Below are positions 6,649-63,960 of a DNA stretch of 64,000 nucleotides, piece by piece. How positions within the stretch are numbered: the stretch's first letter is position 1; every line of letters starts with the position of its first letter. Made by a program: the position numbers and the translations under genes. Source of the stretch: Prostheceraeus crozeri (Eukaryota; Platyhelminthes; Polycladida; Euryleptidae); NCBI GenBank assembly GCA_907163375.1, contig CAJQUW010007055.1, forward strand, positions 186,001-250,000, in the 5' to 3' direction. A model generated the notes under the pieces. The model saw only the letters and a list, made by a program, of their open reading frames with translations. It did no database searches and was not told the DNA's origin.

Positions 6649-7057
6649 TCTCCCTAACCTCGGTAGTGAGGCTGTATAGAAGTTGCATTGGTTATAATTA
6701 AACGTAATCCTAACAACCTACGCTATCTGGTTGACTTCTCAATGCCTACAAATCTGTGATAGAATGTAAAAAAAGAAAAGGTATTTTAAGGTTATAAGAA
6801 TATAAATAGAACTGCTAGGCATAAATGCTGTTAAACACCTAAGATCCACAATTAAGTAGAGCATTGCTGTGTAAAGACAGACTACGTTTCTTTGTATGAC
6901 TACATAGAGTCAGCCGTATTATCATCAATTCGTGCAACCTTATTACAGTTTCAAAATTGTTCACTTTGTGTCAAGCAAGACACGTACATTGGTTCTGTCG
7001 CGTCCTCTCTCTTGGTTCTCTCTCTCTCTCCTTCTTCTTGTTCTTCTTTTAGCAAGT
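6649..7057. other. no gene seen
   Basis: AT-rich sequence with a CT-rich simple run near 7015-7045. I see no recognisable coding or RNA feature. Confidence 0.4.
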
Positions 7058-7995
7058 TTCCTTCAGGACACGTCCACGAGTCCGCAGTCAGCCTCCTTCA
7101 GGACGAGTCCACATGTCCGCATTCTGTCTCTTTCAGGACGAGTCCACAGTCTGTTTCCTTCAGGACGAGTCCACGAGTCCACAGTCAGCCTCCTTCAGGA
7201 CGAGTCCACGTGTCCGCATTTTGTCTCCTTCAGGACGAGTCCACGAGTCCACAGTATGTCTCCTTCAGGAGGAGTACACGAGTTCGCAGTCTGTCTCCTT
7301 GAGGACGAGTCCACGAGTCCCCATTCTGTCTCTTTCGGGACGAGTTCGTAGTCAGCCTTCTCCATGACGAGTCCACGAGTCCACAGTCTGTCTCCTTTAG
7401 GACGAGTCCACGAGTCCGCAGTCAGCCTTCTCCATGATGAGTCCACGAGTCCACAGTCTGTCTACTTTAGGACGAGTCCACGAGTCCGCAGTCTGTCTCC
7501 TTCAGGACGAGTCCACGAGTCCACAGTCAGCCTCCTTCAGGACGAGTCCGCAGTCTGTCTCCTTCAGGACGAGTCCACAGTCCGCAGTCAGCCTCCTTCA
7601 GGACGAGTCCGCAGTCTGTCTCCTTCAGGATGAGTCCACGAGTCCACAGTCAGCCTTCTCCATGACGAGTCCACGAGTCCGCAGTCAGCCTTCTCCATGG
7701 CGGATCCACGAGTCCGCAGTCTGTCTCCTTCAGGACGAGTCCGCAGTCAGCCTCCTTCAGGACGAGTTCAAGAGTCCGCAGTCAGCCTTCTCCATGACGA
7801 GTCCACGAGTCCGCAGTCTATCTCCTTCAGGACGAGTTCACAGTCTGTCTCCTTCAGGACGAGTTCACGAGTCCGCAGTCTGCCTCCTTCAGGACGAGTC
7901 CACGAGTCCGCGGTCAGCCTCCTTCAGGACGAGTTCAAGAGTCCGCAGTCAGCCTTCTCCATGACGAGTCCGCAGTCTGTCTCCTTCAGGACGAG
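7058..7995 (+). repeat. minisatellite of 35-bp and 27-bp units
   Basis: About 27-30 tandem units of the form CCTTCAGG-ACGAGTCC-ACGAGTCC-(A/G)CAGTCxGxCT. The long unit is 35 bp; the short unit lacks one ACGAGTCC octamer and is 27 bp. Because 35 is not a multiple of three, the frame rotates from unit to unit and long stop-free frames appear in all three plus frames and on the minus strand. Those frames have Ser/Arg/Val-rich repeats but no independent sign of coding. GGAC-GA-GTCC is self-complementary and can form tiny hairpins. Confidence 0.9.
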
Positions 7996-30808: not shown

Positions 30809-32464
30809 CAGTCCGTTTCATAAAAAGTGGATCATCCCAAAATTTGACTAAATAAAACATAAGTATGATACAGAAAGCATTTTTCATGTTATTTCATGTC
30901 CCTAATATATTTAAATGTCCTTATATAATCTGATTAGCTATGATACAGTAGCGGTTCTTAAGAAGCTAATATTTTGTGGCCCTACCCTTATTGTCAATGA
31001 CATTACCAATTCGTCTAGGCATTGATTCGATGATATCGTTGATTTTTGACTGATCTAACTTTCTCCACTCTCTTTTTAACAGTGACGTAAGTTGTGATAC
31101 GCCATCTGTAGGTAGCAGTGAACGACGAACGTTACGTTTTAGAATACTCCATACATTTTCTATGGGATTCAGATCAGGAGAACGAGCTGGCCAAGATAAT
31201 GTCCTAAGCCCTAATTGAGACTTGCATAAGTTGACTCTACTACTCCTGTGACACGTAGCATTATCATCCATAAATAACCAAGTCGATGGATCACCAAGTT
31301 GATCTGTCATTTGGCCAATGTTCATTCGTAAAACATTCACATAGCGTTCAGAATTCATGGTTCCTTGCTGTATGTGAAGTTCAGAGCGGCCATTGGTCCA
31401 AATGCCAGCCCAAATCAGTAGAGTCGCACCACCTTGTGCCCGGGGACGATGTAAATGTCTCGGAATTTCCTGATCAGATTTTATCCATAATCTCAATCGA
31501 CCATCACTATCCTTCAGACGGACTGACGCCTCATCAGACCAGACAACCCGATCCCATTGATTTCGCCAGTGACAATGACTCATTGCCCATCTGAGACGTC
31601 TTTTTGTATGCTGATCTGATAATTCGATCTGAGAGGGCCTCTTACAGCTCTTGAAATTCGACTCAATAAGTCTTCTACGAATAGTGGACTTAGAAATAGA
31701 CGAGACTAGTGCAGCCATCTCAGTTAACGAGAGACTTGAATCAACTTTAACAAATCTGAAAATTAGGCGGTCTCTACGTTTGGATGTTTTGCGTGGACGG
31801 CCAGAGCCCTCTTTACGACAGAGTCGAAAATCATCATTATGCCATCGATGCACATTTGTGTAAGGGACATTTAGTCGCTTGCTTGTAGCTCGCAAAGAAA
31901 ACCCTAGTTCTAGCAAGGCTGACACTTTGCCTTTTGTGAATGCGATCTCGTTATTGTTCATTTGTGCTTTGTATTGTTTTCAACCGGTAAGAGATAGATT
32001 TCTAGCTGAAAGCAATCAGGAGTGCTGCCAACACCACCGCAACGAAGTCAGGAAGCCATGGAACATGAAGTCCAGTTAATCACATGTAGCAGTTACATTA
32101 TTGTTGATGAATAATGGTGCTATACTGGCTCTGATTGACCGATTTTCTTTATTTTTGTTTTGCTTGATAGCTTTTGGCTTGTAGAACAACATATTACATA
32201 ACAAAGGAAACAAATGTAATTTTATAAGAGTGAGGTATGATTTTGTGTAACATTGCTAAATGAAGATCAAATTATCTACTACTTTTTTATCTATAACAGG
32301 AAAACAACTCAAAATTCATGCTTGAAATTTCCAACAATGACATTAGTAAGCACAACTGACATATCTTCCAAATTTGAGAGAAATTCGTTCAAGTTTGGCG
32401 GAGTTAGACAAAGTTGAAGTTAAGGCGATGTTTAAGGGTGATCCATTTTTTTCGAAACAATCTG
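30809..32464 (-). mobile_element. complete Tc1-like transposon, 1,656 bp
   Basis: TA dinucleotides flank both ends (30807-30808 and 32465-32466). The terminal inverted repeats begin CAGTCCGTTTCATAAAAAGT on the left and CAGATTGTTTCGAAAAAAAT on the right, sharing GTTTC and TGGATCA. The element holds one intact transposase gene on the minus strand. A shorter, deleted relative with the same ends lies at 16131-17453. Intact ends and an open frame suggest recent activity. Confidence 0.92.
30966..31961 (-). CDS. Tc1-like DD34E transposase, intact 331 aa
   Basis: Cut-and-paste transposase acting in the nucleus on the element's own inverted ends. Residues 1-110 form the paired-type helix-turn-helix DNA-binding region (ALLELGFSLRATSKRLNVPY, then a GRPRKTSKRRDR basic hook). 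The catalytic triad is visible: the first Asp in VVWSDEASV, the second in FMDDNATCH, and Glu in SPDLNPIEN, with 34 residues between the second Asp and the Glu. The length fits the 330-345 aa of Tc1 enzymes, and the ATG at 31961 matches the start seen in the deleted copy. No stops or frameshifts, so it could still be active. Confidence 0.93.
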   Translation of the reverse strand: MNNNEIAFTKGKVSALLELGFSLRATSKRLNVPYTNVHRWHNDDFRLCRKEGSGRPRKTSKRRDRLIFRFVKVDSSLSLTEMAALVSSISKSTIRRRLIESNFKSCKRPSQIELSDQHTKRRLRWAMSHCHWRNQWDRVVWSDEASVRLKDSDGRLRLWIKSDQEIPRHLHRPRAQGGATLLIWAGIWTNGRSELHIQQGTMNSERYVNVLRMNIGQMTDQLGDPSTWLFMDDNATCHRSSRVNLCKSQLGLRTLSWPARSPDLNPIENVWSILKRNVRRSLLPTDGVSQLTSLLKREWRKLDQSKINDIIESMPRRIGNVIDNKGRATKY

Positions 32465-40513: not shown

Positions 40514-41599
40514 AATGTCTCGTATTGAGCTGCATGACCGAATTTTGATCGTTGAGTTGTACTATGAAAATGGGCGAAGTATTGCTGCTGCCCTAAGACG
40601 ATTCTCAACGATTTAAGGCTTGAAAACAAAATCCGAAGCCCGATATCCACTGTGAGTGCATTAATCGAGAATTTTCAGACAACAGGCAGTGTCGCCGGTT
40701 TGCCAAAATCAGGGAGACTTCGTGTGAGTGACGAACACATCGAACATGTTGCCGAACTTGTGACTACCACATCCGGAAGAGCAAGCATTGCTAAAGAAAG
40801 CGAAGACGTTGCCATTAGTCAAACAAGTACTCGAAAGATTATGAAATGCCATCTACGGATGCATCAACACCGAATTCATTTTGTGCAACAGTTGACTTCT
40901 TTGGACTGTACAAAGAGATTGAACTTTTGCTCATCAATGTTACAGCAGTTCTCCGAAAACGACCAATTTCTTCATAACATCTTATGGACTGATGTCGCTC
41001 ATTTTCATCTCTCCGGTGCAGCTAATTCGTGGAACACAATCAGCAATCCATATGAAATTCAAGAACAGTCACTTCACTGGACTGCTAAATCAACTGTTTG
41101 GGCTGGATTTACCCACAATGTCTTGCTTCCTCCTTACTTCTTTGAAGATTATGAGGTCAAAACAGTTGCGGTTAACGCCGCTGCGCGATGCCAACAAGTG
41201 ATCACCGATAATGTGAAACCTCATTTGACTCATAGAAGAATGTTGAAGAAGACATGGATGCAACAGGATGGAGCACCCCCTCACACATCCAAAGTCACTA
41301 AGCAGACTCTGAAGTCAGTCTTTCAGGAGAGAATAATCTCCAAGGTATTTCCAACGGAATGGCCCCCAAGAAGCCTTGACTTAAATCAGTGCGACTTTTG
41401 ACTGTGGAGCTACTTGAAAGCCAATGTATACACTCCTTCTCCGCGTACTTTGGAGGAACTCAAACAACGGATACGGGCAACTATGAATGACATTTCCATT
41501 GAGATGCTTCAAGCCACTTATGAGTCAGTTCCTATGTGGTTTCCTATGTTTGGTGCTGCATTGAAGCAAGGTAACCACATTAACCCAGAATATAATTGA
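40514..41599 (+). pseudogene. mariner-type DD41D transposase, broken
   Basis: The frame starts MSRIELHDRILIVELYYENG (a DUF4817-like helix-turn-helix head). It is interrupted by a one-step frameshift near 40600 and then runs from 40617 with GSVAGLPKSGRLRVSDEH. The catalytic residues are visible: WTDVAHFHL, WMQQDGAPPHTS and WPPRSLDLNQCDF, with 41 residues between the second and third Asp. A TGA at 41399-41401 replaces what is normally a Trp codon in the DFxLW motif, and the frame then continues in phase to 41599. Two lesions make it inactive. I could not locate its terminal repeats with certainty. Confidence 0.85.
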
Positions 41600-41905: not shown

Positions 41906-41911
41906 TTTGGT
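41906..41911. repeat. left target-site duplication of the Polinton
   Basis: TTTGGT immediately before the first AG of the left inverted repeat; the identical hexamer follows the right end at 63955-63960. Six base pairs is the duplication length made by Polinton/Maverick integrases. Confidence 0.95.
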
Positions 41912-42706
41912 AGTAGTAAGAAAACGGCGAACTTACGACCGGCGCCCCCCCCCTCTGGAACGACAGAGGTTGTAGTCTGTCGTGGTGTGCCGGCCAGGTT
42001 GGCCCACGTTCACAAAATGTTCGCTGACTCCCCCCCCTCTGGAACGGCAGAGTGTCGTGGTGGACTTGGGCGACCGCCAGGATTTGTCTTGAGGCTATAG
42101 TGTGTGATGTTTTTCGTGCAATCTGCTGAATGTTGGGTTGTAAAATGGGTTGTTTCGAGTGGAAGGAGTGCTCGGATGTGAAAACGGAGGCCAGATTTGG
42201 ATTCAGCGTGAAATTCTGCATCTGTATGGTGAATTTGAACGCAATCGGAGAGAAAAAATTTTCGCTGACGTCCCCCCCCCTCGGGAGAGCTCGCTTCGAT
42301 TTTGGCTTCCAGTGGACGGATTTTGTCGTGCCATAGCTCGTTTGAAAGCTAAGAGTGAGACAAATTCAGTGAAACAAACGGCTTGTTCATATCTGTCTTC
42401 GTTTAGATGTGAGACGCCATTTAAGATTTTGGGACATTGGCGAAAAACGACAGAGTTAGAATTTGGGACGTTTTGGGCTGCAGCTTCAAAACGAAGCATC
42501 GGATTGGAAAACGGATTTCAGATTTGGAATCAGCGTGAAATTCTGCATCTGTATGGTGAGTTTCAAGTCAATCGGAGAGAAAAAATTTTCAACATTTTTC
42601 GAAAAAACGACAGAGTTAGAATTTGGGACTTTTTGGTCTCTAGCGCCAAAACGAACCATCGGATGGGAAAACGGAGGCCAGATTTGGATTCAGCGTGAAA
42701 TTCTGC
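41912..42706. repeat. left terminal inverted repeat
   Basis: It matches the reverse complement of 63160-63954 over about 795 bp with few differences; the first 14 bases (AGTAGtAAGAAAAC) differ at one position. It contains runs of 8-9 C and repeats of a module with CAGATTTGGA(A/T)TCAGCG and GAAATTCTGCATCTGTATGG. Open frames in it are repeat by-products. Confidence 0.95.
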
Positions 42707-43032: not shown

Positions 43033-43084
43033 TCCAATGAGGATCATCATCCAATGAGAATCAAGCATTTCTATATAAATAGCG
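43033..43084 (+). promoter_or_regulatory. left inward promoter: two CCAAT boxes and a TATA box
   Basis: CCAATGAG occurs at 43034 and again at 43051, and TATATAAATA lies at 43072-43081, about 100 bases before the start codon of the first gene. It sits right at the inner edge of the left terminal repeats. The same CCAAT-CCAAT-TATA order precedes the polymerase gene. Confidence 0.75.
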
Positions 43085-43181
43085 AGCCTTCCACAGTGAG
43101 AATCATTCCATCGTTGAATCACATGAGTGACGGACGCACATTTTCTCTCTCTCTAGTTCCCTATTCTATTATCCAACTAAA

Positions 43182-45572: not shown

Positions 45573-45938
45573 ATGGCGAAACGTAAAATGACGAAACGTA
45601 AAAGTCAAAAGTCTTCAAAGTTTTCTTCAGCCATTCAAGCTCTCCGACGAATGAAAGCAAATCAGCGATACAATGCTATACGACATGCTAACGATAAATT
45701 CATTTGTGAAATTATTTCTCATGTGAGGAAGTTGAGGACGAAGAAATTAGCGCCAAAACAACGAAAGTTACTTAAGCGATATGCTACGAAACTGCGTTTC
45801 ATCTCCAATCCTAAAGTCACCCTTCAAAGAAAGAGCAAAACTCTAACACAAAAGGGCGGTTTCCTTTCAGCAATACTTCCAATGATAGCTCCTGCCGTGG
45901 GCAACCTATTGGGTAATATCTTTGGCTCTAAGCGTTAA
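45573..45938 (+). CDS. basic virion core-like protein with hydrophobic GG-tail (pX/VII-like)
   Basis: 121 aa, starting MAKRKMTKRKSQKSSKF. Residues 1-95 are very lysine/arginine-rich with a conserved-looking NDKFICEIISHVRKLRTKKL core. The C-terminus is QKGGFLSAILPMIAPAVGNL, an amphipathic membrane-active type tail. The layout of a basic, DNA-condensing body plus a GG-flanked hydrophobic tail resembles adenovirus core protein pX and proteins seen beside capsid genes in other Polintons. A GG site before the tail could be cut by the element's adenain-like protease (inference). Its stop lies 2 nt before an ATG of the ATPase gene. Undamaged. Confidence 0.6.
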   Translation: MAKRKMTKRKSQKSSKFSSAIQALRRMKANQRYNAIRHANDKFICEIISHVRKLRTKKLAPKQRKLLKRYATKLRFISNPKVTLQRKSKTLTQKGGFLSAILPMIAPAVGNLLGNIFGSKR

Positions 45939-45940
45939 TT

Positions 45941-46587
45941 ATGCAAATGTTGAATCTCAAAGTAATAAAATAGATTTCAGACTTCAATGTGATAAAGTTC
46001 TGACTGTATCAGGTCCATCTCATGCAGGTAAAACTGTTTTCGCGCTGAATTTATTGGATAAAAGAAGGGAGTTGTTTAAGGAACCTATCAATCGAGTGAT
46101 TTGGTGTTATGGTATTTATCAACCGTCCCTGTTTCAGGAATTGCAAAGTTGCAACTTTATTCGACATGAAGGAATTATTCCAGTGGATAAACTTCAGTCC
46201 AATGATGTTGTTGTATTGGATGATTTATTAAAAGAAAGTAAGAATTCAAAAGATGTTACAGATATGTTCACTCGTGCAGCACATCATAAAAGGTGTTTTA
46301 TCATCTATATCACACAAAATTTGTTTCCTGATGGAAAAGAAGCTCGTACACGAAACCTGAATACGCACTATTATGCTATCTTCAAGAATCAGCGAGATAA
46401 AAGTCAATTTGAAATTTTAGCGCGACAAGTTTCACCCAGAGGATCAAAAGCCTTAATTGAAATTTTTCAAGCAGCTACTGAAAAACCATACGGTTACTTA
46501 TTCATTGACTTTACGCAAGAGTGTCCGGAAGAATTTAGATTTCGAAGTGATATTTTGAAAACTCCCATGATTATCTACAAACTATGA
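45941..46587 (+). CDS. packaging ATPase of the A32/FtsK-HerA type
   Basis: Motor ATPase that pumps element DNA into capsids. Walker A is GPSHAGKTVF, Walker B is DVVVLDDLL, and a sensor-like CFIIYITQNLFP follows. About 215 aa, normal for Polinton ATPases. The coding frame is open from before 45922 but has no ATG before Walker A. The only suitably placed ATG (45941, two nt after the upstream stop) is in another frame and hits a stop after ten codons. Either a one-step frameshift has damaged the first 30 nt or start is non-AUG. The gene ends at 46587 with ATGA overlapping the next gene's start. Confidence 0.85.
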
Positions 46588-47277: not shown

Positions 47278-48225
47278 ATGAAGCAGATGTGTTGTCACTT
47301 GCACTTGCTGCGCCAGCTCTCACAATGAAACCCCTAAGCAATGTGAACACGATCGCAAAACCGCTAAAGCCAAATGCTGCAGTTGTTGTAAATGTAGAAA
47401 GGCAAGAAAACAAAAAGATGAGAAGGAGGAAAAAGAGTCAGTCGTCATCGACTGAACGTTTGAAGTCAATCTATTATGATGTAAAACATCCAGCAGGATT
47501 TGCATCTATCAAGAAATTATCAAAAGCGAGTGGTCTTCCACAATCACAAGTGAAACGATGGTTAAAGGGTCAGGCTACCTATACACTCCACAAACAAGCG
47601 AAAAAGAAGTACCGCACCCTCCATTATATTGTTCATGACATCGATGAACAGCGGCAAGCAGATTTGTGCGATGTCGCCTCCAGTAAAAAATCGCTTGTGG
47701 CGACATTTTACTGCCAACTTGACACAAAATTGGACAAAGGTTCTACAAGATACACTCCATGCCTACAATCACTCTATCCATCGTTCTATTGGACTCAGAC
47801 CAGTAGATGTAAATGCTGACAATGTAGATAAAGTGCGCGAATCATTCCAACGTAAACGCACTCATGTGAAAAGTGATGTGAAAATTGGTGATAAAGTTCG
47901 TATCTCAAAAGTGAAAAGTGTTTTTGCCAAAGGGTACCTTCCGAATTGGACAGAGGAGGTATTTACAGTATCAAGGATTGATCAAAAAGACTCTCCGACC
48001 TCCTACAAGTTGAAAGATTACGATAATGAAGAAATTGAGGGTAGCTTTTACCGCGATGAGATTGAGGTAGTCACTGAAAGTGAAACATATTTGGTAGAGA
48101 AAATCATTCGATGTAAAAAACGGCAAGGTGAAGAATGGTGTCTTGTTAAATGGACTGGTTATCCTTCAAGTATGAACTCTTGGATGCGTCGTGCCGACAT
48201 CTTTCATCTAAGTGATCGACAGTGA
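47278..48225 (+). pseudogene. retrovirus-like integrase with chromodomain, catalytic core deleted
   Basis: Integrase inserts element ends into host DNA. Recognisable parts: a helix-turn-helix block HPAGFASIKKLSKASGLPQS (about 47480-47560), the start of the DDE core (DIDEQRQADLCD, first Asp, near 47640), and then directly the core's end (LWRHFTANLTQNWTKVLQD), skipping the second Asp and the Glu: about 110 residues are missing at a junction near 47680, and the frame changes there. The C-terminal chromodomain (VEKIIRCKKRQGEEWCLVKW, then TGYP and NSW) is intact to 48225. The best start is ATG 47278, one nt after the previous stop, but it leads into other frames (see the cysteine-rich overlap). 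Inactive. Confidence 0.88.
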
Positions 48226-48266: not shown

Positions 48267-48718
48267 ATGAATCCAACTGCCTCATTTTATTCACGACCCT
48301 CCTATGTAAGTGGTGGAGGACAAATTTACATCGGCGCTCGCCGCCAACGTGGAGGTAGCATACTTGGTGCACTGAAATCTGTTGTAGCACCTCTCATATC
48401 CAATGTCGGTAGATCTTTAAAACGAAATGTTTTAAGTAATGCCGTTGGCTTTGCTGGCGATGTTGCTAGTGATCTTTCCAGAGGTAGAAGTTTTAAGAGC
48501 AGTTTGTTGAATCGTGGGAAGGAACGCGGTTTAAAAACATTGAAGCAGACCTTTGCTGGTGTTACTCAAGGAAAGAAATCACCTAAACGAATGAATAAAG
48601 GAGGAAACATCGCGGAGCTGGTAAGGTGCGATCTTCAGTCAAAAGGCATTCACGCAAACGTCGCAGAGTCTCTAATCATTCATCAGGCACTAAACGACGA
48701 CGCTGCCATAACTTCTAA
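48267..48718 (+). pseudogene. glycine-rich minor virion protein candidate (pVI/pX-like), frameshifted
   Basis: From ATG 48267 the frame reads RRQRGGSILGALKSVVAPLI, SNVGRSLKRNVLSNAVGFAG, and so on, a GG-flanked amphipathic stretch followed by a basic body, as in minor capsid/membrane-lytic proteins encoded before the major capsid gene. Near 48580-48600 the sensible frame changes: the original frame loses its basic character, while the other frame gives RHSRKRRRVSNHSSGTKRRR and stops at TAA 48716-48718, two nt before the capsid ATG. The role is inferred from composition and position; penton function is an alternative. Confidence 0.55.
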
Positions 48719-48720
48719 TC

Positions 48721-49997
48721 ATGGAGTGTAAAACTTCCGGTTTTGTTTGTTTGATCAACAAGCCATACAGACAGATATTCTTAGTTCAAGTATTGTAGAT
48801 TATCATCCTCGAACAGCTGAGAATGCTGGCCCCATTGAATTTGTTATTCCTGGTGGTAGTGATGACTACATAGATTTGAGTTATGCGATGCTTGATTTGA
48901 GGTTTAGAATTCAGCAAGCAGATGGCACTGCTATTGACGATGCACATAAAGTTGGACTGAACAATTTACCATTGACTACATTACTTCGCGATGTTTCTCT
49001 AACGATTGGAGAGCAGCAGGTGGAAGGTGGTCAAAGCGATTATCCCTATAAATCATATTTCAATCATGTATCACAGTTTCATCCAGCAGCACAAAAAAGT
49101 CATATGGAAGCCATGGGATGGTACAGAGATGAAGCAGGAAAATTTGATGTTGAAACAAACAGTGGCTTTGTAAAGCGATCTGCTATGATTAAAGATAGTA
49201 GAGTATGTCAGCTATATGGTCCGCTGAATTTAGACTTCTTTAGACAGTCAAAGTTTTTACTCTGTAATACCAGCATGCGACTCAAGCTGACATTGAATAA
49301 GCCTGAAGTTGCGCTGAATGCATTTGGTAAAGTTGACAATTTTAGAATTCATGTGGAAGATATTGCACTTTACATTCGTCGAGTAGTACCGAATCCAAGT
49401 GTCATTAGAGGACATGCTGAAGGTCTTAACCGCCAAAATGCCATTTACCCCGTTCAGCATACAAAGCTTCTCACCTTTACAATTCCGAAAGATCAAAAGA
49501 GTTTCATGAAAGATGGCCTCTTTCCATCGGAAGCACCGAAGCTCCTCATGGTGGCAATGGTTGAAAATGATGCATTTAATGGTAATATAAAGAAGAATCC
49601 TTTCAATTTTAAACACAATCAGTTAAGTGAAATTGCTTTACGTGTAAATGGTGTGAGTCATCCTGGTCCACCCTAAAAACCAGATTTTGCTTCGGATCAA
49701 TTTATGCGCAGTTATGTTGATTTTATGGATGTCTTTGGCTTTTACAATACGGATGACACCAACGGACTCACTATGAAAGAGTTTAAGAGTGGATATACTA
49801 TTTATGCATTTGATTTGACTGCTGACAGCGATATTAGTGCCCCCTATCGTCAAGCGAACGTGCCTCATAATATTCGTTTGGATTTGACGTTCAAAAGAAC
49901 ACTACCTGAGACGATCAATGTATTAATTTATGCAGTCTTCGATTCAAATATTGAAATTACAAAGTATCGTGACGTGATTCTTCAGTATAATCGTTAA
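48721..49997 (+). pseudogene. major capsid protein, double jelly-roll type (F54H12.2-like), two lesions
   Basis: Main shell protein of the predicted Polinton virion. After the ATG at 48721 (MECKTSG) the reading frame shifts within the T-rich 48738-48748, then runs with family features: GPIEFVIPGGSDDYIDLSYA, SDYPYKSYFNHVSQF, GWYRDEAGKFD, RVCQLYGPLNLDFFR. A TAA at 49674-49676 interrupts after NGVSHPGPP; the same frame continues to 49997 with FMDVFGFYNTDD and a C-terminal strand block. Intact length would be about 425 aa, usual for this group. Neither lesion is likely to leave a working capsid. The C-terminal stop overlaps the protease start (TAATG). Confidence 0.9.
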
Positions 49998-50458
49998 TGA
50001 GTTGGTTGACTGCTGACGATATTAAGACTAAAGTGCAGCGTAATGCAGACGAAGCGACGTTGAAAGCTTTCGATAATGTCTATTCACTCGATACCTTACC
50101 ACCTGCAGTAAATCACTATCCCATCTTTATTGTGCTAAACACTCATTCGCAGAATTTAGGCGGTGAGCATTGGAAAGCGATCTTTATTGGAGAAGACCGA
50201 CGTGGTGAACTATTTGACTCTCTTGCTCAATCTCCAAATATACCAACACAACAGTGGTTGAGAAAACATACGCGTCAATATCAGCGAAATGAACGCCTAC
50301 TACAACATCCACTTTCATCAACGTGTGGTGCTTTTGTACTGTACTTCATCTTAAAACGTTTACATGTATCTCGATTTGTATCTGTTATTCAAAACTTTTC
50401 ATGTAATCCATCCTCTAATGAAAAAATGATTTGTAAGTTCTATCATGATTTGAAATAA
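49997..50458 (+). CDS. adenain-like maturation cysteine protease
   Basis: 153 aa, intact. Catalytic residues in family order: His in GGEHWKAIFIG (about residue 57), Asp in GELFDSLAQSP (about 74), Cys in SSTCGAFVLYF (about 111). Ulp1/adenain-type proteases of Polintons and adenoviruses process capsid and core proteins during virion maturation. The start codon overlaps the capsid stop by one base (TAATG), a signature of termination-reinitiation. AATAAA occurs at the end of the gene (near 50455). Confidence 0.92.
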   Translation: MSWLTADDIKTKVQRNADEATLKAFDNVYSLDTLPPAVNHYPIFIVLNTHSQNLGGEHWKAIFIGEDRRGELFDSLAQSPNIPTQQWLRKHTRQYQRNERLLQHPLSSTCGAFVLYFILKRLHVSRFVSVIQNFSCNPSSNEKMICKFYHDLK

Positions 50459-50490
50459 AAACATCATGTTGGAAAAATTGTTTTTTATTT
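50450..50490. terminator. convergent polyadenylation signals
   Basis: AATAAA at the plus-strand protease stop and AATAAA on the minus strand (from TTTATT at about 50480) just at the TBP-like gene's stop. The two convergent gene blocks end within 30 bp of each other. Confidence 0.65.
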
Positions 50491-51030
50491 TACAATCCGC
50501 TGGGTACGTACATACTCGATGAGATAGTCTAGGATCACATTTACTTGTACATGAGATTTTAGTCCAGTAATGATCACTTTACTATTATAAAAGATTGCCA
50601 CATGCACAGGTAACCAACAACTAATAAGAGCTGCAGGAAAAAGTTCGGGTTCATAACACAAATTGTAACTGCTGGTACGAATCTTCAAAAATGATACACT
50701 TTCACTCAATTGAGTAGAGATCACCATATTGTCCACAGTCAGATTCGACATCACACACCTCTCCCTCTTCCATATCCGACGTAGTAGTCTTTGTAGCTCT
50801 AAGCGCATTGACTGCGCCGATGAATGAGAAAGGGCGCCGAGAATCTGTACAGTCCCATTTGGGAAGAGTTGAAGATTCCGTGAATTGTTCATCTTCACCA
50901 CTAACATTTGAGGTCGGCCCGGGTAATACTTGCTGTTTGGAAGGTGTTGGTGTAATGTTGTGAGATCGATTTTGGTGTAGAGTCTGAAGCGACGGAGAAT
51001 GTTGACGATGGTGTAGCGATGGCGCTTCAT
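50485..51030 (-). CDS. TATA-binding protein-like (TBP core) protein
   Basis: 181 aa from ATG 51030, the length of the conserved TBP core. It contains two direct repeats. Repeat 1: IVNILRRFRLYTKIDLTTLH, SKYYPGRPQMLVVKM, LQLFPNGTVQILGALS. Repeat 2: MSNLTVDNMV, LCYEPELFPAALISCW, VHVAIFYNSKVIITGLKSH. Both repeats follow the TBP order (N-V-V strand, YxPxxFP, IFxSGKxxxTGxKS, final helix). Of the four DNA-kinking Phe, three have counterparts (LQLF, ELFP, AIFY); the first is Pro (GRP in place of KRF). The likely role is binding TATA boxes of the element's promoters or competing with host TBP. It is last in a three-gene antisense cassette and overlaps the end of the preceding gene. Undamaged. I do not know TBP as a standard Polinton gene. 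Confidence 0.85.
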   Translation of the reverse strand: MKRHRYTIVNILRRFRLYTKIDLTTLHQHLPNSKYYPGRPQMLVVKMNNSRNLQLFPNGTVQILGALSHSSAQSMRLELQRLLRRIWKRERCVMSNLTVDNMVISTQLSESVSFLKIRTSSYNLCYEPELFPAALISCWLPVHVAIFYNSKVIITGLKSHVQVNVILDYLIEYVRTQRIVK

Positions 51031-51352
51031 GATGAAAAAATGAGTAAATTGAGCGATGTACCTTCCTTTTATACTTTTCCCAACTACCTTGATGAAATGT
51101 GAAGTTAGTATGGAGTTGGGAATGATAGAGTTGAATTCGCCGATTGTTGACGCGCAACCAGATGCGATTTCCAATACGTGAATGTCTTTTCATATAGAAG
51201 TATTTCAAATCCTTCATGATATGATGTAGAGATTGAAAATGACGATAAGATAAAGCAAACTCTCTTCTCACATTTCCAGTTGAATCTTTGAAATAGACGT
51301 TTCGATCATGATCCGTTTCAATACGTTGTAGGGAATCTAATTTCCAACTCAT
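50702..51352 (-). CDS. small PC4-like? protein B, overlapping the TBP-like gene
   Basis: ATG 51352. The first 107 residues are paralogous to the neighbouring protein A: SWKLDSLQRIETD, then NVYFKDSTGN, a DLKYF helix, GNRIWLRVNNRRIQLYHSQL, and WEKYKRKVHRSIYSF. Each half has beta strands followed by a helix, loosely like PC4/Sub1 folds; this is a low-confidence guess. Beyond residue 108 the frame runs another 109 codons entirely inside the TBP-like gene in a different frame, with Ser/Pro/acidic composition. Since paralogue A stops at the matching place, the overlap is probably the result of a lost stop, but a fused product is possible. Confidence 0.5.
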   Translation of the reverse strand: MSWKLDSLQRIETDHDRNVYFKDSTGNVRREFALSYRHFQSLHHIMKDLKYFYMKRHSRIGNRIWLRVNNRRIQLYHSQLHTNFTFHQGSWEKYKRKVHRSIYSFFHHEAPSLHHRQHSPSLQTLHQNRSHNITPTPSKQQVLPGPTSNVSGEDEQFTESSTLPKWDCTDSRRPFSFIGAVNALRATKTTTSDMEEGEVCDVESDCGQYGDLYSIE

Positions 51353-51374: not shown

Positions 51375-51731
51375 TTAAGATTTGCATAGTAGGGCGATGA
51401 ACTCACGACGAATAAATGTCATGATGGAGCGATGTATGTATCTTCTATACTTCTCCCAATTGTATTTGCGAAATGAGAAACAGTTTGCGGAATGAGAATG
51501 GTAGATTTGAATTTCATTTCTGTAATGTTGAAGCCAAACTTGATCACCCAAGGAGATGAATCTTAATGTTTCAAAATATTCCAAATCCCTCATGATATCA
51601 TTGAGGTTGACAAATTGTCGCCATGTTAATGTAATACCTCTTGATGTATGACCATGAGAATTTTTGAAATGTACGTTTCCATCACGATCAACTCTGATAT
51701 ATTGTAGAGAGTCCAAAATCCAAGTCTTCAT
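51375..51731 (-). CDS. small PC4-like? protein A
   Basis: 118 aa from ATG 51731 (MKTWILDSLQYIRVDRDGNV). Two similar halves: VHFKNSHG ... ITLTWRQFVNLNDIMRDLEY, and LGDQVWLQHYRNEIQIYHSH ... WEKYRRYIHRSIMTF. Strand-strand-'ItLtxxQfxxL'-helix is what PC4-type single-strand-binding/coactivator domains look like, but the match is from pattern only. It ends with a stop at 51375, 22 nt before the start of its paralogue B. It is divergent from the forward gene at 51767 with only 35 nt between start codons. Undamaged. Confidence 0.55.
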   Translation of the reverse strand: MKTWILDSLQYIRVDRDGNVHFKNSHGHTSRGITLTWRQFVNLNDIMRDLEYFETLRFISLGDQVWLQHYRNEIQIYHSHSANCFSFRKYNWEKYRRYIHRSIMTFIRREFIALLCKS

Positions 51732-51766: not shown

Positions 51767-53164
51767 ATGTCGTTTTATCATATTTTGCTTAGCAATACGG
51801 CTACAAAGAGATTTGCTAGTAATCGAGCCGCACTCTTTTCTACTCCCATTGATCATGCACAACAGCTAAATGGAAATTGGGAAGTGGGTGTCACTCAACT
51901 TGTTTATAGCAACTGTGTCTATACTTTTGATCATGAGGTGATGACTATTAATATGAGACGTACAGCTGCTTACCAATGTGAAAAGGGGTGCCGAGTATAC
52001 ATTCCACAGTGGCCAAAGAAAGATCTCTTATCATGTAAAAAGTTTATATATGATTTCTTGAATAAAGCGTGTAAACATATTGCCCAATTTACTCCGCACA
52101 ATGATGATCATAATTATGTACATCTTGTAGTTGAGAAAGATTGGATTGTTGGTTTAAGTCCAAGTTTAAGAAATGATTTAGGTTACCTCGCTAGCGCCTT
52201 AACAAGCTATGATAATTTTAACGTTAATTACCACATAAGTGGTCATAAACAGTTAATATATCGAGACGAAGCTTATTATGTAGATCTTATTCCAAAAAAT
52301 GAGAAGACGTTGGTGAAGAAGATTGTGATTAAGCCAAGAAAGACAAACATGACTCCTGAAACATTATTGAAGAAATTTAATTATCTCCTTCGAGTTGATG
52401 GTAAACAAGTGGCAACATTGACTTATATCAAATCATCTAATCATATTGCAATAATTAAATTAAATGATGATGATCTAGTATTAGTTTGTTCAAAAGATTT
52501 TCATCAGTTCTTAAGACATCGTTCTGCAGCTGTTCATGGAAAATCTGATATGCAACATTTACCATGTGAAAGGCCAAATCAATTTGATACAGAATGGGCC
52601 GTATCTTTATACAGAAAGTGTGTACAGCCTTTCGGTGGTGTCTTACATGAAACAAGAGTGTTGATGCCTCGCATTATTACTTCGGTTAAATTGGTTGTAG
52701 ATTATTTAAATGAAGTGATTAATGAGCAACATGTTTCATTTTCTGAAAAAGAAGGTGCTTTGTCTCTCACTATAAGTGGAAAAGGTATTGAACTAATTAT
52801 GGATAAAACTCTAATGGACATTTTGGGTTTTGATCAAAATATCTTTAAAAGTGGTACTGTAACCAAAGCTAGCGCAGACATGTCACTATCGCGTCGTATT
52901 AACTATTTTCAGATATATTCCAATATTGGTGAAGATGTACGTGTGGGAGATGTTGAAGCTCTATTGCTAGCAATGATACCATACCAGCCAAAAAGCTGCA
53001 GTATTTTATCTGAGCATACTTTCAAGAAAGTGCATTATACAAAGCTGAAATCAAACTACATCCCACAAATTGATACTGCCATTTATGACGATGCTGGTGC
53101 GTTGATTCCTTTTCATAAAGATGCTGTGACAAGTATCACACTCCATTTCCGAATGAAGAGTTAA
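51767..53164 (+). CDS. Polinton GxWEVGV-family protein 1 (virion vertex/spike candidate)
   Basis: 465 aa, intact, from ATG 51767. The N-terminus has the family motif LNGNWEVGVTQLVY. The middle repeats strand-rich modules with FLN/LGF patterns (LMDILGFDQNIF). The C-terminus has NYFQIYSNIGEDVRVGDVEA, then YIPQIDTAIYDDAGALIPFH and ITLHFRMKS. Proteins of this plan lie next to F54H12.2-like capsid genes in many invertebrate genomes; their role is not known to me. Size, position and beta-rich repeats suggest a vertex, penton-linked or spike protein. The stop overlaps an out-of-frame ATG (TAATG). Confidence 0.65.
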   Translation: MSFYHILLSNTATKRFASNRAALFSTPIDHAQQLNGNWEVGVTQLVYSNCVYTFDHEVMTINMRRTAAYQCEKGCRVYIPQWPKKDLLSCKKFIYDFLNKACKHIAQFTPHNDDHNYVHLVVEKDWIVGLSPSLRNDLGYLASALTSYDNFNVNYHISGHKQLIYRDEAYYVDLIPKNEKTLVKKIVIKPRKTNMTPETLLKKFNYLLRVDGKQVATLTYIKSSNHIAIIKLNDDDLVLVCSKDFHQFLRHRSAAVHGKSDMQHLPCERPNQFDTEWAVSLYRKCVQPFGGVLHETRVLMPRIITSVKLVVDYLNEVINEQHVSFSEKEGALSLTISGKGIELIMDKTLMDILGFDQNIFKSGTVTKASADMSLSRRINYFQIYSNIGEDVRVGDVEALLLAMIPYQPKSCSILSEHTFKKVHYTKLKSNYIPQIDTAIYDDAGALIPFHKDAVTSITLHFRMKS

Positions 53165-54902: not shown

Positions 54903-57900
54903 TTATGCTAAGACGTCTCCTGAATGTGGTAGTGTGAGTTTAATTCTTTTGGGTGGTGGTATGTTTGTGTCAGGATGTCCATGTGGAAGAGATATGTTAT
55001 GTTCTAACCAGCACCTCTTATCCTCCCATGCTGAAAGCGCCCGTTTCCTAAAAGTATGCGTTTTGATCTCATGCGACTTAGATTTTAAGATTGTCATATT
55101 GACAAACGTTATATTTTTATTTCTATAGGCTTTCCTGAAATTTTTATGTTTCATGTTAGAGACCAATGATCTTGATATGCCTTTAGCACGCTTAATACTA
55201 TCGTCACAATCCTTTAATTTCATACTGTACATTTTTGGACGGAGGAGAATCATTTCATCTATTTCCTTCCCTGCTGTCTCATCCTTAAAGCAGCCAAGTT
55301 TTGTCTTATTTTTGATGGAGTAGAGTGGGTGATCAGTAGGATAATTTGATGTATCAAAATATCTTTCTAAAGATTTTCCTACTTCATTGAAATTTAAATC
55401 TTTTTGAGTGGTAATACCTAAGAAGAAACTATCTGTATCGCCACCCAACAAACGAACCTCTTTTACGAGAGGACATGGTTTTAGTATTTTATAAAAGAGT
55501 TGGTACATTTCAAGCTTAGAATAATCTAGTACAGCTTGGCCAATATAGATGGGCTTGCACAACATAACTTGAGATTTTATCATTTTAACACCTACAAGAT
55601 CCTCATCGATGATGTCTCTATCAATGAAAAGAGGTGATGAGACCAATTTCTTAAATTTTGTAACATCATTGACTAGTTTGTAGTTTACACGTTTTCTAAC
55701 ATCCTCCATCGTCTTACCAAATAGACTATTATTCTTATACTTATAAAAATCTTTTTCAAAATTATTTTGGGCTAGTGCACGTTTCTGGCTGTTGCTATCA
55801 ATATATGGTTTGAGGAAGGCTTTCTGTCTAAATTTAATAATGCGGTGAACTCTTTTTAAAATCATACCCATTTCTAAATAAAATTTTAAGATGCTAAAGT
55901 GGACTAGATAGTTTTCCTTATCATACTGGGTGAGTAAAAGTTTGCGGCAAGGCTTATAGTCGGGTTGACCGCATGATTCTAAATCTTTATGAAATTGTTT
56001 CATAAAGTTGGAAAACATATCTTTGGTCACTTCACCTGATTCGGGTGCGAGTGGAAAATCTACGGTTTTATGTTTAATATTATTTGGATAGATTAGATCT
56101 ATCTCAAAATAATATCCCCAATCACCTTCATCTGGAATTGCTAGTATGTTAGAAGGGTTGGAGAGATGCTGAATTTCACTATCATCTAACCAGCTAAACT
56201 CAGAGTGAGGGAGTGGTTTGGATAGTGAACTACCATATAAATTATTTTGGTCATAATACTTAAGATGAGTCTGATCATCGCCTACTAATTTTGATTTTAA
56301 CCTACGTGTATGTTTATTTACAAATGTGAGACCACCGCGAATTCCTCGCTCAAATAAATTATACATCTCTGGATCTTGTAAGAGATGAATGGTCTCACCA
56401 GTCATTTTAAAAGCAGACTTAAAGGACATGGCTGGCAGACTGACAAAGTGGACGGGATCTAACTTATCTTCTTCTAATGCCACTCGTCGAAACTCCTGAA
56501 ATACATCAGCCAGCAAAAATACACCTAACTTAAGGTAGGCAATCATATATTCGCCAAATGTATGGCAGTCAAATTTTATCCATGCATCTTGTGCATGATC
56601 ATAATCTTCGGTCTTACATTCTGCACCGCTCAAATCATTTTTAAATTTATCTATGGATGGAAGAGAAGTCTCGCCGAGTTTACTAATCGCATCAAAATAT
56701 GCATATGGAAAGACTCCTTTCCGTGTGATGACTTCATCGGTTAGATTTGGATATTGTTTCTTAAGATTTTGTGTTAGTGGAAGAGATTTTAGATTTTGTA
56801 CGAGAGAGGCCAGTGATGCAGTCTTAAATTGGTAGGAATCTAAAAATTTTATATCAAAATAGACCGTCTTATTTTCTTTAGTTTTATCGACAGGCACTTT
56901 TGCTGTCATGGCCATAAACTTCTCTCTCGTTTGTGCTATTACATCAAGTTTCCACTCTTTCATTTGACCTAAACCTCCTTTTATTATCATATGGCTGTCG
57001 TAGCCCTTGAAATTATGGAAAATGACGGGTAATGTACGCCGTTTCATCCTAAGTGAAAAATTGCATTTTGAACATAGTGCGTTTCTAAATTTACCAGTGA
57101 TGTGATCATGGTCGCGCACTTTCTTAATCTTATCATCATCAAATGTTTTACTACATTTGGGACAAACGTTGCAACTATCAGATTTTGCTTGATCATCTGC
57201 TGTCATATGCAATGATCTTCGATAGAGTTCACCATCATACTTTTGTTGAAATTTTACAGCCTGTTCGAGGAATTGTAGGAATTGGTAAATACAATCCTCA
57301 CCTTGCCAGACGTGCATTTTATTTTTTCTATTTTGGAAATGGTCATGCCATACTTCATAGCACGATATGGCTGCTGGCTTGTGGATGATATCATCGATAT
57401 AGCATTCGATGTCAGCATAGATGACACGAAGAGGACTTAGTTCATCGCCATTCTCTCTATATGAAAACTCCTTATCTTTGGGCATGCGCTCCATTTGTAG
57501 TTTACCTCGCTTACACCATTCGTAATGAGTTTCAAATCTATTTTTACTCCTAAAGTTGCGAATGCATCTGTCAGAGTAATAAATCTCTGATGAGGTAGAA
57601 TTTCTTAAGTGGTGGTATAAGCGAGAAATTTTGGGAATAGCGCAGTAGTGCCATTCCTCACTATCATCCTGTCTTACTAATAAAAGGTTGACAACGTGGT
57701 CATAACAACTCGAACGCGAGTTGTAGCGGACACCCTTCAATCCCTTTTCCCAAACATGGAGAACTATTTTGATGTTGTTCAATTTTTCAAATTTTTCTAT
57801 ATCTTTAATTTTCATATCTTCACTATTGCAGTCACCAAACTTTAATTCATTCTCCCACTGTTGATACTTACTCTTACGGTATCGGCTATACTGTACATCA

Positions 57901-58898
57901 TTATAGTGGAGAATGGAGAGGACGGCATACTGAAAACATTGCGATTCGCAATCTACAGAAATGACTGCTTTTTTATTTTTTAAACTTTTCGGAAGTTTAA
58001 AGGAGCCTCGTCCAGAGTAGTTCTCTAATAAAGTGATTTTAATCATGGCGGTCTCAATACCATCGAAAACGAGACCACTATCACGCTCGTTAAATTTATC
58101 TATATTTAATTTTAACCCTTGGATATGAAAATTTATCCAAGACTCACAGTCTACAACTTCGGTTGCAGGAGAGGAGGGTATGTGAAACTCCAACCTCTCT
58201 ACTATTTGACCAGTATGGTGGTCGATTTTTACATATTTTATTTTGAGATAGATGAGCGCCTTCATTCTAAAATTGACTAAATTGTTGAAGAGCGCACCAA
58301 TCAAAGATGAATTTTGATGAAACCATTCTTCAAAGTCAGTAATGGTTTCTGAGGACTCCATCTGGTAGTTCCTCACTAAATTATTTATCGACACTTCAGA
58401 AAGTCGGATAGAGGAGGTGCTGTTAGTATAACTATCGTCACTGTGTGTATGTCGAAGTCTATGTGAAGATAGTTCAAAATGTGACTCAAAGGACTGAATG
58501 CATAAATCGCAAGAAAAGGAGACATCGTTAACAGAATCATCCCCACCTTCAGAGATTGATGCTGACTTAGGTCTACAAACACCTCGCTTAATGTGTCGGA
58601 TGAGATCACGCTTCCTCGTTAAGATGTGCCCACAGTCAGCACATTCCCGATCGTTGCATTCCCGCGACAATGTTGACATGGACTCGCTCGAGATGGGACT
58701 GGTATCACCTGAAAGAGAAATCATTCTATCATCTCCGTTCAAGTCTCAGTGTATTGTTACAACCTACCTTGACTCAACAACTCTAAACTTTCCTCGAGAA
58801 GGGAGGGCGTTGGTGATGAAGTTGATGCCTGAAATTGAGGAAGATGCTATTAGCCACACGTTTGAGGGAGATGAGTGAAGAAATTTTCAACTTACCAT
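54903..58898 (-). CDS. protein-primed type DNA polymerase B, three coding exons
   Basis: Replicates the element. Coding exons: ATG alone at 58898-58896, 58828-58768, and 58708-54903; introns of 67 and 59 nt have GT..AG ends and the joins keep frame, giving about 1,289 aa beginning M|ASTSSPTPSLLEE. N-terminal domains: two zinc-finger-like units (CADCGHILTRKRDLIRHI; CDLCIQSFESHFELSSH), the domain shared with the 44785 gene (about 155-255), a C39/OTU-like region starting SVDCESQCFQYAVL, then CPKC ... RDHDHITGKF ... CSKC (endonuclease VII-like finger). Exonuclease boxes YADIECY and FHNFKGYD are present; box III reads YLKLGVFLLAD with Gly where Asp is expected. Polymerase motifs are complete: YDQNNLYG (A), YKNNSLFGK (B), GDTDSFF (C). 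No stops. Confidence 0.93.
58829..58895 (-). other. first intron of the polymerase gene (67 nt)
   Basis: Begins GTAAGT directly after the ATG and ends TTTCAG. Same length as the first-gene intron at 43185-43251 and about 70% identical to it (47 of 67 positions by hand, ungapped). The flanking exon text GCATC(A/T)ACT also matches. Confidence 0.8.
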
Positions 58899-63159: not shown

Positions 63160-63954
63160 ATGTAGAATTTGACGCTGAATCCGAATCTGGCCTCCGTTTT
63201 CCCATCCGATGCTTCGTTTTGGCTCTACAGCAGGTAGCCATCGCAAAAATTCTAACTCGTTTTTTCGAAAAATGTTGAAAATTTTTCTCTCCGATTGACT
63301 TGAAACTCACCATACAGATGCAGAATTTCACGCTGATTCCAAATCTGAAATCCGTTTTCCAATCCGATGCTTCGTTTTGAAGCTACAGCCCAAAACGTCC
63401 CAAATTCTAACTCTGTCGTTTTTCGCCAATGTCCCAAAATCTTAAATGGCGTCTCACATCTAAACGGAGACAGATATGAACAAGCCGTTTGTTTCACTGA
63501 ATTTGTCGTACTCTTAGCTTTCAAACGAGCTATGGCACGACAAAATCCGTCCACTGGAAGCCAAAATCGAAGCGAGCTCTCCCGAGGGGGGGGGACGTCA
63601 GCGAAAATTTTTTCTCTCCGATTGCGTTCAAATTCACCATACAGATGCAGAATTTCACGCTGAATCCAAATCTGGCCTCCGTTTTCACATCCGAGCACTC
63701 CTTCCACTCGAAACAACCCATTTTACAACCCAACATTCAGCAGATTGCACGAAAAACATCACACACTATAGCCTCAAGACAAATCCTGGCGGTCGCCCAA
63801 GTCCACCACGACACTCTGCCGTTCCAGAGGGGGGGGAGTCAGCGAACATTTTGTGAACGTGGGCCAACCTGGCCGGCACACCACGACAGACTACAACCTC
63901 TGTCGTTCCAGAGGGGGGGCGCGCCGGTCGTAAGTTCGCCGTTTTCTTTCTACT
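63160..63954. repeat. right terminal inverted repeat
   Basis: Reverse complement of 41912-42706, ending CTACT at 63954. It keeps the poly-G/poly-C runs and the CAGATTTGGATTCAGCG module, with small deletions near 63250. It has one module set, whereas the left side has a partial second set. Confidence 0.95.
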
Positions 63955-63960
63955 TTTGGT
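63955..63960. repeat. right target-site duplication of the Polinton
   Basis: TTTGGT, identical to 41906-41911. Confidence 0.95.

Follow-up and report, generated by a model that had tools for sequence, protein, structure and literature searches.

A TATA-binding protein homologue with a changed DNA-reading surface in a flatworm Polinton, and a candidate GC-centred promoter box

Introduction

Polintons (Mavericks) are described as elements with terminal inverted repeats (TIRs), a 6-bp target-site duplication (TSD) and genes of the polymerase-like, chromodomain integrase, protease-like, ATPase-like and major capsid protein (MCP) types; they are not known to encode an RNA polymerase. The element analysed here has the TIRs, the TSD and a chromodomain integrase, together with candidate genes of the other types, and, compared with Polintons/Mavericks as described, adds a gene for a protein of the TATA-binding protein (TBP) family. 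Term searches of the accessible parts of PMC11071308 and PMC12220804 returned no mention of a TBP gene and the accessible part of PMC10120064 gave no match for TBP or TATA; no Polinton TBP was found in the open-licence literature, in which the co-mentions examined were unrelated.

Virus-encoded TBPs and TBP mimics are already known. Giant viruses, large algal viruses and mirusviruses, all of them much larger, likewise encode TBP-fold proteins (BFVD matches); TBP is reported in 59% of mirusvirus genomes (PMC10132985), algal viruses carry both TBP and TFIIB (PMC4602308) and KSHV ORF24, a mimic of TBP encoded by the virus, recognises the late promoters of that virus and works with host Pol II (PMC12529657). 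The Polinton protein, a TBP homologue of 181 aa that stands alone, is likened to the ORF24 system by description only. With the cellular TBP of eukaryotes and archaea it shares the two-repeat saddle (as predicted), the N-V contacts, three of the four kinking Phe residues and the TFIIB stirrup, whereas it has Pro, Gln, Gln and His fixed or nearly fixed at DNA-reading positions and lies on a separate branch. TRF2/TLF is also a TBP paralogue with a changed DNA face; according to a review, one intercalating Phe is missing from TRF2, which is unable to bind TATA (PMC10005294).

A dedicated TBP with a matching box would bear on how Polintons time their genes. If true, evolution would here have produced an orthogonal pair of TBP and promoter operating on host Pol II, as laboratories have made by mutation, with in-genome controls at hand in the host TBP, a host TLF-like gene and many copies of the element.

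Element limits and gene content

Within the window (the whole 64,000-nt stretch of Prostheceraeus crozeri DNA analysed), the element was judged to be a probable Polinton from the ensemble of TIRs, TSD and gene set, several of the matches lying below curated cut-offs and the MCP and polymerase being named by eye (Table 1). The packaging-ATPase-like protein is 59-64% identical in three stretches fetched in the genome search described below (L011, L012 and L016), and an open integrase frame is present in L012 (core residues judged by eye). No Pfam or PDB sequence match was obtained for the MCP, which forms a large conserved family in the protein search. The copy had been described as decaying, and this was borne out by the interrupted MCP frame and the missing integrase core; because the MCP frame is interrupted while the relative P0062 is 99% identical to it over 309 aa, there are intact relatives, and the insertion is probably a young one. 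The polymerase frame, assigned to the protein-primed type from motifs read by eye, gave no polymerase match in Pfam or PDB and includes an endonuclease-VII-like domain (Pfam E 2.2e-6). At the left-end gene (43182, +), and possibly at the polymerase (58898, -), the first exon would consist of the ATG alone, followed by GTAAGT (by eye), and the terminal genes may be spliced.

Table 1. Features of the Polinton and of its candidate promoters in the window.
Feature	Position	Strand	Remarks
Left TSD copy TTTGGT	41906..41911		6-bp, exact duplication
Left TIR arm	41912..42606	+	Element start 41912; 98% complementary to 63260-63954
TATA box TATATAAATAG	43072..43107	+	Before left-end gene (ATG 43182); TCATT about 31 nt downstream (by eye)
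Box ATGCAAA	45527..45533	+	46 nt before ATG 45573 (PX-like)
Small basic protein	45573..45938	+	Weak adenovirus mu core protein match, E 0.0039, below cut-off
Box ATGCAAA	45941..45947	+	29 nt before place homologous to ATPase start
Packaging-ATPase-like protein	45970..46587	+	Weak Pox_A32 match, E 0.0062, below cut-off
Integrase, C-terminal chromodomain	47289..48225	+	E 2.5e-7 for the chromodomain; this copy lacks the catalytic core
Box ATGCAAA	48229..48235	+	38 nt before ATG 48267 (pVI-like)
pVI-like capsid-side protein	48267..48731	+	Name by eye only
MCP family	48721..49997	+	Name by eye; frame interrupted; overlaps pVI-like gene end
Cysteine protease	49997..50458	+	Peptidase_C48 E 0.0019, Peptidase_C5 E 0.057, both below cut-off
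TBP-family protein, 181 aa	50485..51030	-	Intact; Pfam, PDB phmmer, predicted fold
ORF-B	51014..51352	-	Frame open further; overlaps TBP start and promoter
Initiator-like TCATTTT	51037..51043	-	Its A 32 nt from first T of TATA box
TATA box TATAAAA of TBP gene	51067..51073	-	Sequence
ORF-A	51375..51731	-	ORF-B paralogue, 44% identical
Box ATGCAAA	51381..51387	-	35 nt before ORF-B ATG 51352
Box ATGCAAA	51738..51744	+	29 nt before ATG 51767 (g51767)
g51767, 465-aa protein	51767..53164	+	Conserved in other families
Box ATGCAAA	53164..53170	+	40 nt before ATG 53204 (g53204)
Protein-primed-type DNA polymerase B	54903..58742	-	Motifs by eye; possible first exon ATG 58898-58896
Hybrid TATATATGCAAA	59021..59032	-	Upstream of possible first polymerase exon; sequence
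Right TIR arm	63260..63954	-	695-nt repeat, ends 63954
Right TSD copy TTTGGT	63955..63960		Exact match to left copy

ORF-A and ORF-B are tandem paralogues, and a match to ORF-B precedes the TBP gene in other families too. A PC4-like nature of the two, suspected by eye, was rejected on a poor AlphaFold model (pLDDT 46), with no Pfam match above cut-off and no PDB match for ORF-B. Outside the element, repetitive serine-rich frames were seen in GC-richer DNA to its left (6892-7964), and Tc1/mariner-like transposase frames (by eye) lie near it at 30966-31961 (-) and 40652-41401 (+).

The TBP-family protein and its relatives

The 181-codon intact minus-strand frame reported in the initial annotation was found at 51030-50485 as quoted, between protease and polymerase. 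Pfam-A returned a single family, TBP (PF00352; E 2.4e-20, with a score of 72.6 bits where the cut-off is 22.9), which matched in two stretches, in keeping with the two direct TBP-type repeats noted before, and phmmer against the PDB returned 35 matches to TBPs or TBP fusions (E 2.3e-11 to 1.4e-7), one of them, ECU04_1440, being named by its locus alone. The only NCBIfam models to match were those of TBP, none of which reached its cut-off, and the PHROGs profiles gave no match. The saddle fold, for which structure prediction had been proposed as the check, was found in the predicted structure, and the low identity to cellular TBP held at about 19-26% in structural alignments. Profile match and predicted fold uphold the homology, and membership of the TBP family is practically certain.

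A PF00352 search of the 2.05-Gb eukaryotic genome, in which 150 of 10,984 first-look candidates were scored, gave four rows that are host genes (a canonical TBP on C9306 and a TLF-like gene on C3829, named by eye); the remaining 146 score like the element type. Twenty-four of these places, picked for varied frame length, were fetched, and none of them lacks a further element gene: 12 have MCP and protease next to TBP, 11 others a polymerase and L033 ORF-B only. This, together with TIR and TSD, rules out a host gene adjoining the element.

The window type is represented by L017-L019, L021, L022, L026 and L027 (TBP identity 94-97%) and by L029 (82%), and family 2 by L011, L012 and L014, in which the TBP is 47-48% identical to that of the window. 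The order common to the window type and L012 is ATPase, g46584, integrase, pVI-like, MCP, protease, TBP, g51767, g53845, polymerase; the same gene, which the initial annotation had proposed to seek in other Polintons, is thus present there after the protease and before the polymerase. An ORF-B match lies upstream of TBP in L012, with none in L011 and L014 at that threshold. The MCPs of L012 and L016 are each 54% identical to P0062 (over 347 aa in L016), and L016, with a TBP identity of 38%, differs from the window type in gene order. In the same stretch, the homologues of g51767 and g53845 point the opposite way from those of the window type, and a frame that looks by eye like a reverse transcriptase lies at 1819-2274. 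Group 3 comprises 12 stretches (L013, L015, L020, L023-L025, L028, L030-L034; TBP 41-51% identical to the window), of which 11 have a polymerase match; their fetched flanks gave no match to MCP, protease, the pVI-like protein or g51767, and these copies are possibly capsid-less or deletion derivatives that retain TBP.

A protein search gave 61 relatives and a profile search 350 at E 1e-3, the best 120 of which were listed, those unlisted possibly including cellular TBPs. By its sequence, the Polinton TBP serves as a marker for many metagenomic proteins that are probably of the same virus kind. Scans of IMG/VR and GTDB with TBP A1, MCP and polymerase confirmed no relative's DNA and, with TBP A1 in IMG/VR, no Polinton-type TBP; with cellular TBPs as queries, two loci with cell-like TBPs came up.

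DNA-reading surface and TFIIB contacts

Residues were surveyed in 133 distinct listed relatives in yeast numbering, at positions including those that touch DNA. N159, V161, F116, F207, E188 and P191 are invariant (133/133) and F190 (132/133), T215 (132/133) and N69 (111/112) nearly so. The canonical TFIIB-contact stirrup is kept (E186 in 131/133, E188 in 133/133, L189 in 123/133). Three of the four kinking Phe residues, F116, F190 and F207, are retained, as the initial annotation had counted; the fourth, F99, is lost, being Pro in 127 of the 130 relatives having a residue there (Pro40 in the window TBP). V122Q and V203H are each found in 133/133, and L114Q (129/133), T124L (118/133) and L205A (112/133) are nearly fixed, so that, in the canonical minor-groove reading set, positions 114, 122, 124, 203 and 205 are changed and N69, N159, V161 and T215 kept. 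Position K138, on the TFIIA side, is Glu in 103/133. The host TLF-like gene (L004, by eye) has the stirrup YEPELHSG, whereas in the Polinton TBPs F190 is retained and the differences lie at F99 and at positions 114, 122, 203 and 205.

Positions 203 and 205 presumably belong to the second-repeat mutation set that gives TGTAAA use. According to PMC10005294, three second-repeat mutations let TBP use TGTAAA, stirrup glutamates contact TFIIB and a table of activity in Drosophila gives 0% for TATGTATA and less than 7% for TATACATA. By its residues, the Polinton TBP is not a standard TBP, and a TBP whose base-reading surface is altered in this way while its TFIIB stirrup is retained could use a GC-centred box; on the Drosophila figures, host TBP should use such a box poorly.

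The same pattern, a conserved TFIIB stirrup beside an altered DNA surface and probable TFIIA side, would suit a TBP mimic that ties up TFIIB or further general factors and thereby stops host or rival-virus transcription. However, F116, F190, F207, N159 and T215 would be needless in a DNA-free decoy and are invariant or nearly so, and such host-directed interference is very unlikely.

TATA-initiator promoters

The promoter of the TBP gene takes the form TATAAAAG-N24-TCATT or a near form, and TATAAA-N24-TCA(T/C) was found at the TBP gene in the window and in 18 of the 24 fetched stretches. The pattern was missed in L011, L015, L016, L028, L033 and L034, L011 having TATAAA with a spacing one longer. 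At the left-end gene, TCATT stands one base closer to TATATAAATAG than at the TBP gene (by eye). A second TATA-N24-TCA copy lies about 4 kb upstream of TBP in L013, L020, L023, L024, L025 and L030; no ORF-B match was found at this second site in L013 and L020, and in L020 a frame that looks by eye like the left-end gene lies about 660 nt beyond it. The overall count of TATA-N24-TCA, 25 against up to 22 for other spacings, is not unusual (multi-copy stretches).

Part of the conservation of the TBP promoter is coding, because the promoter overlaps ORF-B. The N-terminal 'SIK...HFF' seen in relatives (15/20 eligible) was rejected as a pure TATA/initiator signal, being confounded by the overlapping ORF-B frame: 16/16 tested relatives were ORF-B-compatible (P 0.025 or less), two of another subfamily were not, and P0005 and P0014 were excluded. 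The codon choice TAT AAA was found in 15/16 (P 3e-5 under window codon use), the 16 having been preselected by that motif, and argues for both ORF-B coding and a TATA signal. ORF-A, the paralogue without a TBP gene behind it, has TATAGA at the corresponding place.

The initial annotation had put forward TATA boxes for a binding test with the Polinton TBP. Since such boxes stand before the TBP gene and the left-end gene, early promoters used by host TBP are the better reading, and a GC-centred box is the more likely target of the Polinton TBP. A TATA-reading Polinton TBP that supplements or replaces host TBP at these promoters, for instance when host TBP is in short supply, in an autoregulatory loop, would fit the presence of TATA boxes before these two genes, the contacts kept in the C-terminal repeat and the three Phe residues. 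However, the family has other, nearly fixed residues at the base-reading positions and six central genes bear another box, and this alternative is unlikely.

A GC-centred box upstream of central genes

ATGCAAA stands at -29 to -46 in 6/8 central starts having their own upstream space, the exceptions being TBP, which has TATA, and ORF-A, and in none of the three abutting or overlapping starts (g46584, MCP, protease). Over the whole element it is found at 6/17 starts examined, and no box was present in the tested span of g44170, 45198, 59130, 62325, the possible polymerase exon or ORF-A. Any 5-mer occurred at 6/6 starts in 1/5000 random ATG sets, the six starts having been chosen after looking. 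In a wider first test, ATGCAAA was found at 5/18 starts (five of the 18 coordinates not being ATG), and some 7-mer did equally well in 14/2000 and 15/2000 random sets. Enrichment by overall count was rejected, as ATGCAAA is absent from the top 7-mers; its position alone stands out.

In L012, AAGCWW lies at -33 to -37 in 5/5 picked starts (ATPase, integrase, pVI-like, g51767, g53204; any 4-mer in all five in 92/5000 random sets), the loose pattern also occurs upstream of three abutting genes, and no box was found upstream of ORF-B. In L016, g51767 has AAGCAA at -37 and the ATPase ATGCTA at -42. AWGCWW, a pattern chosen after looking, was found at 16/24 listed starts in four stretches (three of the 24 coordinates not being ATG), against 7.3% (161/2209) of any ATG. 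The box differs between families and agrees within each, two families being compared, with ATGCAAA found by looking and the AAGCWW form recognised after it; such a pattern is as expected if the reader is element-encoded. The candidate GC-centred target boxes would be TATGCAAA and TAAGCAAT, the TATA form being TATAAAAG.

ATGCAAAT is the octamer core, and it is exact at three of the six boxed starts in the window, as it would be if ATGCAAA were a site for a host octamer (POU) factor, unrelated to TBP. The family-2 homologues (ATPase, pVI-like, g51767, g53204), however, carry AAGCWW and not the octamer, and the box varies between families yet agrees within each; a POU site is quite unlikely.

Proposed mechanism

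Host TBP and Pol II would transcribe the early genes (TBP, the left-end gene and perhaps the polymerase) from TATA-initiator promoters, as their promoter sequences suggest. The Polinton TBP would then bind a box that resembles TATA and has a GC step at its centre (ATGCAAA; AAGCWW elsewhere) about 30-46 nt upstream of the ATPase, core/capsid-side and other central genes, bend the DNA and, to judge from the conserved stirrup residues, recruit host TFIIB and Pol II in a way that would bypass TFIID and probably TFIIA. For the main reading, in which this Polinton-specific TBP paralogue acts as a late-gene promoter factor on host TFIIB/Pol II, we put the probability at roughly one half. The fuller proposal is held more tentatively, at somewhat worse than even odds: animal Polintons may have a private promoter code, in which a TBP of altered specificity would recognise a GC-centred, TATA-like box and turn host Pol II/TFIIB over to the late genes of the element, the protein and its box having drifted together between families (TATGCAAA to TAAGCWW). 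Of the suggestion in the initial annotation that the element directs its own promoter recognition, the general idea gains indirect backing from the altered DNA-reading surface and the recurrent non-TATA box, and the TATA boxes drop out as likely targets.

A purely late-gene role leaves unexplained the 12 group-3 stretches, which have TBP and no capsid-side match in their flanks. That they keep TBP, 11 with a polymerase match, would suit a DNA-bending protein serving replication, packaging or integration of the element and not transcription. However, the TFIIB-contact residues are invariant or nearly so and the boxes lie at a promoter-like distance, and a role of this kind is highly improbable next to that of a promoter factor.

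Origin and selection

In a 36-row tree with eukaryotic and archaeal TBPs, the 28 Polinton-type TBPs fall on one side of a branch with support of 100/100, and long branches lead to the eukaryotic and archaeal TBPs. Recent capture from the host was rejected, as the host TBP is canonical and the Polinton branch separate. The old transfer proposed in the initial annotation agrees with this branch, as would fast evolution.

An undamaged frame had also been taken as a sign of selection. One intact copy is weak evidence (dS 0.017 and omega 1.16 against the close copy L017), and the case for selection comes instead from an omega of 0.22-0.28 between lineages and from the residues fixed in 133 relatives. 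The window compared with L029 (132 codons, to the first stop of L029) gave dS 0.315, dN 0.070 and omega 0.22, and two other window-type copies compared with L029 gave 0.26 and 0.27; for more distant pairs, omega was 0.28 (L012-L020), 0.26 (window-L020) and 0.26 (window-L016), with dS of 1.5-2.5 near saturation, and the window-L012 comparison was saturated. Very likely, the TBP gene belongs to these elements, has been under selection and is either old or fast-evolving. It is constrained between lineages and recent pairs are mixed, the within-family omega being 0.39 in family 2 (two pairs) and 0.28-0.63 in group 3 (six pairs).
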